Shown here one piece after another: positions 23,301 to 35,951 of a DNA stretch of 37,620 nt. Made by a program: the position numbers and the translations under genes. Each line of letters begins with the position of its first letter. Position 1 is the stretch's first letter. The notes under the pieces are model-generated. The model did no database searches. It saw nothing but the letters and a program-made list of their open reading frames with translations, and was not told the origin of the DNA. This DNA comes from Nitrosovibrio sp. Nv4 (GTDB taxonomy: Bacteria; Pseudomonadota; Alphaproteobacteria; Acetobacterales; Acetobacteraceae), in the NCBI GenBank assembly GCA_943330455.2, contig CALQHT020000021.1, positions 1 to 37,620 of the forward strand, written 5' to 3'.

Positions 23301-23819
23301 GTGCGCAGGCTGTTCCTGCTTGCGGGCCTGGCCTGGGCCGCACCGGTCCGGGCTCAGCCCCAGATACCGCCCGCGCTGACCGAGTATGGCGCCGGGCTGC
23401 TCGCCAATCTGATCGAGACCGCGCGAGGGCGAGCCATCGCGGATGGCGTGCGGCCGCTCCCGACCACGGTCTATCGGCAGCTTCTGGGCTTTTTCCCGGC
23501 GGCTCTGTTGCAGCAGGCGCGGTTCGCGACCGGCCCTTCCGCGAACCGCATCAGCCTGCCGTCGCTGGCCTTCACCTATGGCGACGCCGCAGCCATGACC
23601 TTGCGCGAGGTCGTGCTGTTCCGCGACGAAAAATCCGCGCAAACGGACCTGAAACTGTGGGCACATGAACTGACCCATGTGCTGCAATACCAGCGTTGGG
23701 GCCTCGACGGGTTCGCGTCCCGCTACGTCACCGATCGGGCCGGCGTGGAAAAGGAGGCGGTGGACAATGCCGAACGCTTCAGCAAATGGCTGGGTTCGCG
23801 CCAACCGACCGGGCGCTGA
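23301..23819 (+). CDS. Secreted DUF4157-type protein with HExxH motif
   Basis: This 172-residue protein starts at GTG 23301, with AGGGAG 7 nt upstream. Residues 1-18 form a signal peptide (MRRLFLLAGLAWAAPVRA|Q). The core contains LWAHELTHVLQYQRWG, where His122-Glu123...His126 is the zinc-binding HExxH of metallopeptidase-like DUF4157 domains. It is followed by GLDGFASRYVTDRAGVEKEAVDNAERF, whose glutamates could supply a third ligand. A periplasmic or extracellular location is inferred; whether it is an active protease is unknown, as DUF4157 domains are often linked to toxin or effector contexts. An ATG-led extension to 23223 lacks a signal-peptide-like start. A large palindromic element begins 5 bp after its stop. 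Confidence 0.8.
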   Translation: MRRLFLLAGLAWAAPVRAQPQIPPALTEYGAGLLANLIETARGRAIADGVRPLPTTVYRQLLGFFPAALLQQARFATGPSANRISLPSLAFTYGDAAAMTLREVVLFRDEKSAQTDLKLWAHELTHVLQYQRWGLDGFASRYVTDRAGVEKEAVDNAERFSKWLGSRQPTGR

Positions 23820-23824
23820 CATGG

Positions 23825-24169
23825 GCGGCACGCAACGATGACTGCCTCATTTGGAGGGGCAATTGGGGGAGGAAGGAAAGCTTTGGGGCTCCGCCCCAAA
23901 CCCCGCGAGGGGCGTTGCCCCCTCGACCCCCACCAAGGCTGTGCCTTGGATGCCATTTATTGGGTCAGGAGCGAAAGGGGGCCGACCATGGCGTTTCAAC
24001 GTCCGTGTTGGCCCCCTTTCGCTCCTGACCCAACTGATCGCGGTCCAGGGGCCGTAGCCCCTGGTGGGATCGAAGGGCAAAGCCCTCGCGGGGTTTGGGG
24101 CAGAGCCCCAAGGCTTTCTCCCCGCCCCCGACGACCCCGCCAAATGCGGCAGTTATTGTTGCGAGCCGC
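23825..24169. repeat. 345-bp nested palindromic element (MITE-like or REP cluster)
   Basis: The whole stretch folds back on itself. The ends GCGGCACGCAAC (from 23825) and GTTGCGAGCCGC (to 24169) pair, and outer arms around 23863-23912 and 24080-24128 match closely. A perfect 24-bp inverted repeat, 23960-23983 against 24010-24033, flanks a 26-nt centre. Each arm also contains its own small hairpins, for example TTGGGGCTCCGCCCCAA, CCAAGGCTGTGCCTTGG and CCAGGGGCCGTAGCCCCTGG. Open frames through it on both strands are a by-product of the symmetry. No transposase and no clear target-site duplication are visible. Confidence 0.8.
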
Positions 24170-24243
24170 TATAGCGCTGGGCGCGCGGCGCGAAATTTGA
24201 CACAATGGCGTCGCTGCAATCACTCAACCCCATGGGGCCCGCC

Positions 24244-35211: not shown

Positions 35212-35350
35212 AGTGTTGCGGGGCTTCCCGGTGCGACAGGCAATTCATCCCCAGGGCCAGTAAGCATCTCCCTAGGGAGCTGGCGCTGTCGGGATCTTGG
35301 TCTCGGTATCTGGCACCCACCTGCACACGCAGGCTCTGGGAGGATGTTAC
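35212..35350 (+). ncRNA. ssrS: 6S RNA
   Basis: The gap between zapA and the 5-formyl-THF cyclo-ligase gene is the classic site of 6S RNA. The sequence shows the alpha-type features: a closing stem pairing GGCTTCCCGG near 35223 with CTCTGGGAGGAT near 35340, CCCCAGGGCC and CCCTAGGGAGCTG around the central region, TCTTGGTCTCGG, and the conserved 3' segment ACCCACCTGCACACGCAGG. 6S RNA mimics an open promoter and sequesters housekeeping RNA polymerase during slow growth. The exact ends are estimated from the stem. Confidence 0.82.
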
Positions 35351-35360
35351 GCCAACGGCC

Positions 35361-35951
35361 ATGGAGGCTCCGCACTCTCCACACGATCTCGACCTTGCGA
35401 AACGAGCCATGCGCGAAGCTGCACTGGCGGCGCGAGCGGTGTCCGTCCAGGCTGGGCCTGGACCGGCGGAATGTGGCGCGGCCCTGGCAACCCATGTCCT
35501 GCGAGACTGTCCACCGCCGTCCGGCGCCGTCGTGTCAGGCTTCCTGCCCATCGGCGATGAAATCGACGTCCGCCCGCTGCTGATCGCCCTGCACGAACGC
35601 GGCCACGCCCTGGCGCTACCGGTCACCCCCAAACGCGGCAACCCGTTGACGTTCCGCCGCTGGCGACCCGGTGATGCCCTGGCGGCCGAAAAATTCGGCA
35701 CGATGCGGCCCGTCGGGGACGAAATCGTGCCGACTTTCTTGCTGGTGCCGCTGCTGGCCTTCGATCGCCGGGGTTTCCGACTGGGCTACGGCGCCGGCTA
35801 CTACGACCGAACCCTGGCAGGCCTGAACGGGCATTTCGCCCTGGGCTGCTCCTATGCGGCGCAATGTGTGGACACTGTGCCGATTGGTCCCTACGACGTG
35901 CGACTCGACGCCGTGGCAACCGAGCTCGGTATTTTGAGGCCGAACGGTTAG
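35361..35951 (+). CDS. 5-formyltetrahydrofolate cyclo-ligase
   Basis: This 196-residue enzyme converts 5-formyl-THF to 5,10-methenyl-THF with ATP. The N-terminal helix contains KRAMREAALAARAV with the conserved Lys-Arg pair. VSGFLPIGDEIDVRPLL, LALPVTPKRGNPLTFRRW and FLLVPLLAFDRRGFRLGYGAGYYDRTL (ATP and folate site) follow. The length is normal. It sits directly behind 6S RNA, and in many bacteria (E. coli ygfA) it is processed from the same transcript. The ATG at 35361 lies about 11 nt after the 6S RNA end. Confidence 0.94.
   Translation: MEAPHSPHDLDLAKRAMREAALAARAVSVQAGPGPAECGAALATHVLRDCPPPSGAVVSGFLPIGDEIDVRPLLIALHERGHALALPVTPKRGNPLTFRRWRPGDALAAEKFGTMRPVGDEIVPTFLLVPLLAFDRRGFRLGYGAGYYDRTLAGLNGHFALGCSYAAQCVDTVPIGPYDVRLDAVATELGILRPNG

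Follow-up and report, generated by a model that had tools for sequence, protein, structure and literature searches.

ERIC / RU-1 and YPAL / RU-2 of enterobacteria are gene-less intergenic palindromic repeats that occur in many copies and form a long stem, with TA at the ends of ERIC (PMC2229807); ERIC is 127 bp long and folds into a single long stem-loop (PMC2267715). Correia/NEMIS and RUP are small elements with terminal inverted repeats and a TA-type target, and RUP, linked to IS630-Spn1, relies for its movement on an IS630 transposase acting in trans (PMC2229807). Where template switching takes place between inverted repeats, it homogenises their arms and inverts their spacers (PMC8604942); it also creates and maintains hairpins and can yield compensatory changes (PMC8794818).

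The window analysed here is a stretch of 37,620 nucleotides from an Acetobacteraceae genome assembly (G000; 6.48 Mb, 470 contigs), and at 23825-24169 it carries an imperfect palindrome that a sequence-only reading had taken for either a MITE-like element or a compound REP structure. Our analysis suggests that it is probably a non-autonomous, MITE-like mobile element remodelled in place by template switching. Like ERIC / RU-1 and YPAL / RU-2, it is intergenic, palindromic, gene-less and present in many copies with a long stem, but unlike ERIC it is ~340 bp long, has seven hairpins and is frequently flipped in place. It shares terminal inverted repeats and a TA-type target with Correia/NEMIS and RUP, from which it differs in its GC-rich, nested interior, and, unlike RUP, it has no IS630 copy with matching ends. 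As with REP / BIME, it is palindromic, extragenic and often found at gene 3' ends; however, the genome lacks RAYT (PF01797, Y1 transposase; the control genomes of this search gave matches in 5/14), and a nested palindrome made of a 224-bp core plus tails lies far beyond the 20-40 bp of REPs, and the compound REP reading is not supported. Arm homogenisation and spacer inversion are also the marks of quasipalindrome template switching and of small hairpin-loop inversions in yeast, E. coli and chloroplasts (PMC8604942), but those are single-site cases, whereas here a multicopy element is flipped at about half of its orthologous sites. We recognise no sequence shared with ERIC, NEMIS or RUP, judging by descriptions rather than direct comparison; by analogy, the element appears to work like these three while standing outside the tested IS630- and RAYT-linked families.

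The palindrome is far beyond chance. Its outer arms (23825-23911 and 24083-24169, 87 nt) are 83% complementary in inverted orientation and its inner arms (23960-23995 and 23998-24033) 86%, and, as had been claimed, a perfect 24-bp pairing of 23960-23983 with 24010-24033 encloses a 26-nt centre (23984-24009). The predicted RNA fold reaches -274.6 kcal/mol against -151.9 +/- 5.1 for shuffles (z -23.9), and the DNA fold gives z -21 against shuffles. The start 5 bp past a TGA stop codon (23817-23819) was confirmed; alignment to further copies places the ends at 23824 and about 24170 (Table 1). Open reading frames crossing the element are mechanical and indicate no gene, in agreement with its earlier description as gene-less.

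Table 1. Parts of the palindromic element, in window coordinates.
Feature	Position	Strand	Basis
Whole element, ~347 bp	23824-24170	.	Ends aligned to other copies; shared terminal inverted repeat
Left tail with 33-bp-type terminal inverted repeat GGCGGCACGCAACGATGACTGCCTCATTTGGAGGGG	23824-23870	+	Also in 189-, 130- and 106-bp elements that differ in interior
Right tail, imperfect inverted copy of left tail	24124-24170	-	Arm and end comparison
Arm A local hairpin 1 (TTTGGGGC/GCCCCAAA)	23882-23900	+	In 53/53 arms; 21 distinct stems; local covariation
Arm A local hairpin 2 (CGAGGGGC/GCCCCCTCG)	23906-23925	+	In 53/53 arms; 19 distinct stems, compensatory changes
Arm A local hairpin 3 (CCAAGGC/GCCTTGG), A-type marker	23933-23949	+	In 53/53 arms; 15 distinct stems; used for arm orientation
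Central stem, perfect 24-bp inverted repeat and invertible 26-nt centre	23960-24033	.	Covariation; centre orientation among copies
Arm B local hairpin 3 (CCAGGGGC/GCCCCTGG), B-type marker	24045-24064	-	Arm and hairpin comparison
Arm B local hairpin 2	24071-24088	-	Hairpin comparison
Arm B local hairpin 1	24095-24111	-	Hairpin comparison and covariation

Each copy consists of a core of ~224 bp and two tails, in the order tail, arm A with three hairpins, central hairpin, arm B with three hairpins, tail. Arms A (CCAAGGC...GCCTTGG) and B (CCAGGGGC...GCCCCTGG) are related yet distinct and stand in inverted order around the 24-bp stem and its 26-nt centre. The nested hairpins noticed earlier on both arms recur across copies: all three are found in 53/53 arms from several species, in 21, 19 and 15 distinct stems with frequent compensatory changes. 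The central stem differs in sequence from copy to copy; among 46 copies in G000, 12 of its 24 pairs show changes in both partners. In 17 of 49 copies of that assembly, the centre is turned round with respect to the arms. In the G000 copies the whole branched structure outscores all 500 shuffles and the slid controls; the mid-arm long-range pairing shows almost no covariation, and the first hairpins covary locally. Columns 220/231 and 223/228 of helix 8 never pair, which is due to bracket placement and not to the element. The large branched RNA foreseen by the sequence-only reading stands in part, as a predicted branched anatomy with conserved hairpins. Rfam 15 gave no match above the gathering score for the element; elsewhere in the window, 6S / SsrS RNA lies at 35218-35374 on the + strand (63 bits, gathering score 46).

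A search of the window's own assembly returned 40 places with E below 1e-86, and a 27-base arm pattern found 84 + 92 = 176 half-sites there, the reversed decoy finding none; a single unique palindrome is thereby ruled out. Since two half-sites make one element, there are ~90 copies, a count that is based on pattern hits and whose true value is uncertain because many contigs end inside a copy. Copy number varies widely in the genus, being high in three further genomes (G017, G007 and G014), while others hold few diverged copies or none; the assemblies compared, MAGs where identified, are fragmented, and their breaks often fall at the element. When 84,980 species genomes were scanned with a sequence pattern, the element was confined to Acetobacteraceae MAGs, several of which carry sample codes that suggest lakes, and reading origin from these codes would suggest a repeat of freshwater Acetobacteraceae. 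Plasmid records held no match to the element, and a literature search for the hairpin sequence string returned nothing. Twelve element-bearing MAGs (L194, L200, L202-L206, L208, L209 and L211-L213) are titled Asaia bogorensis, others only Acetobacteraceae. The species label looks doubtful, because one MAG so labelled falls in the genus of the window genome and other carriers bear only the family name.

Mobility is indicated by presence/absence polymorphism among these dispersed copies without coding capacity. Six sites filled in G000 (the window locus, L014, L028, L155, L165 and L171) are empty in G017, the closest relative, where a single contig carries both flanks, although such alleles could in principle be losses instead of never-filled sites. 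The cleanest is L014, where the empty allele is GACGCTTAAGGGAACC and the filled one GACGCTTA|GGCGGC..., the stop codon TAA changing to TAG. The single copy with no relatives and no empty-site allele that would have spoken against mobility is thus not what the genomes hold. Full-length copies are bounded by a ~33-bp inverted repeat, TTA|GGCGACGCGCAACAATAACTGCTYCATTTGG, with the end motif TTAGGCGACGCGCAACAATAACTGC, and the flank consensus is T(T/A)A on both sides, TTA/TAA at the full form. Terminal inverted repeats are seen on full-length copies only, a minority of the copies examined; most copies lack the full terminal repeat, which weighs against a mobile element. The flanks of copies contain no exact duplicate above chance that would mark a target duplication. 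The same terminal repeat is found at the ends of shorter palindromic elements of 189, 130 and 106 bp, whose interiors differ from that of the window element. A second family in G017 and G000 is exactly 189 bp long, with 12 copies seen (L108:14065-14253, L150:1789-1977, L328:1501-1689 and others), the elements of 106-130 bp likewise share the terminal repeat but not the interior, and repeats of ~120-140 bp matching both strands at L131, L108, L070, L082 and L112 of G017 represent further palindromic families in the genus.

The search for a transposase with matching termini came back empty: the genome's two DDE_3/IS630-like loci do not carry the terminal repeat, and an IS630 parent was therefore rejected. 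No autonomous parent with the same ends was found in the sequences examined or in a pattern scan of the genus, an absence made weak by incomplete, repeat-broken assemblies, and for this reason we write MITE-like rather than MITE. When ends 0.8-4 kb apart were considered, there was one pair, at 3.9 kb, the left end of which fits a closer partner better, as a 189-bp element; a single terminal end in G009 had no partner. Solo outer tails were likewise discarded, the tail variant of the window element occurring almost only alongside the core.

All 49 complete copies are intergenic, 21 between convergent, 19 between tandem and 8 between divergent genes with 1 unplaced, as judged with a simple gene caller of our own, and most lie <60 bp from a stop codon. 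Convergent placement (21/48) exceeds the 8.7 expected from intergenic length (p about 4e-5), and 13 of 19 copies in tandem pairs are nearer the upstream stop. Orientation relative to genes, at 12:7, is not different from random.

Comparison of sites filled in both G000 and G017 reveals remodelling in place. The arm beside the same flank changed type at 7 of 11 such sites and was kept at 4, the centre was flipped relative to the flank at 5 of 10, and all four combinations of arm swap and centre flip occur, the two being independent. Where both flanks lie on one contig in both species (five sites), the arms are swapped at 2 and the centre is flipped at 3. In these assemblies, as distinct from reads, an artefact seems unlikely, because no more than ~110 bp separates unique flank from the arm marker and the centre, a distance that a 150-bp read would span. 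The outer tails differ from locus to locus, but the two of one copy are complementary to each other and sometimes extend into host sequence. A tail scores higher against its own partner than against the tails of other copies (mean 10.8 vs 4.9), the signal running with distance from the core at z 4.3, 7.7 and 6.2 and then vanishing, in a test that includes full-length copies sharing the terminal repeat and with strong signal in a minority of copies. Similarity between the two tails of L017 is 92% in G000 and 74% in G017, with left tails 68% alike between species. The left tail of L006 duplicates in inverted orientation the 3' end of the alcohol dehydrogenase (ADH) gene to the right of the element; the inverted copy is absent in 29 relatives, and the gene end itself (LLDAAW) is ancestral in nearly all of them. 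At L299 and L307 of G017, elements join the flanks of two different G000 elements (L156/L163 and L274/L285), exchanges that could reflect recombination between copies or assembly joins.

The tails might be read the other way round, the core having inserted into pre-existing hairpins such as terminators or other palindromes, so that complementary tails would be the target and not a later product. Tails that are complementary and locus-specific in many copies, in other species too, suit such a target, as does the position of copies beside stop codons and between genes that converge, which is where terminators lie; but the empty alleles of L001, L014 and L165 show no such hairpin, the inverted ADH end of L006 is missing in relatives (although gene order differs there), and at L017 one of the two species, but not the other, acquired similar tails. 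We consider this order of events unlikely. Selection on a functional structured RNA, acting as bidirectional terminator or stabiliser of mRNA 3' ends, seems quite improbable: it would account for the strong covariation, for three hairpins kept with compensatory changes in every arm across many species, and for the bias towards convergent pairs and upstream stops, yet the element has no Rfam match, its hairpins have no T-run terminator behind them, many relatives lack it or carry few diverged copies, its orientation to genes is random-like, and compensatory changes are also produced by template switching (PMC8794818).

Centres and arms that flip independently and near 50:50 are what a dedicated recombinase working the centre or arms as a switch might leave, but a central stem that varies between copies offers no fixed recombination site, no recombinase is indicated beside the window copy, and several different crossover points would be required, all of which makes site-specific inversion extremely unlikely. 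ERIC orientation has been reported to matter in Yersinia. By analogy, ~90 invertible hairpins at gene 3' ends could serve as genome-wide random orientation switches altering the termination or mRNA stability of their neighbours, a role that we regard as highly improbable. Since orientation relative to genes is random-like, an orientation-dependent function finds no support; orientation looks random and no cellular function is indicated.

The preferred reading is a MITE-like element, probably remodelled by template switching. It would have been moved in trans, presumably by a transposase inserting at TA, TTA or TAA, often at stop codons; we infer movement in trans because the terminal repeat also bounds other small elements. 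After insertion, replication template switching (or recombination within the element) between the arms of the inverted repeat would flip the centre, exchange arms A and B with respect to the flanks, restore complementarity of the central stem and copy a tail, sometimes with host flank, to the other side as an inverted duplicate. Template switching is the single process that best covers the flips, swaps, covariation and tails.

The element occurs in ~90 copies, its two arms can be told apart and its centre is asymmetric, which makes it a built-in reporter of inverted-repeat mutation: inversions can be counted from the way arms and centre face at orthologous sites, and host flank that was copied in inverted form is recorded in the tails. 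It thereby becomes possible to measure, in a bacterial genome, how often template switching acts on natural inverted repeats and how far it extends. The element is also a warning against reading 'compensatory' changes in elements of this kind as necessarily a sign of selection for RNA structure.
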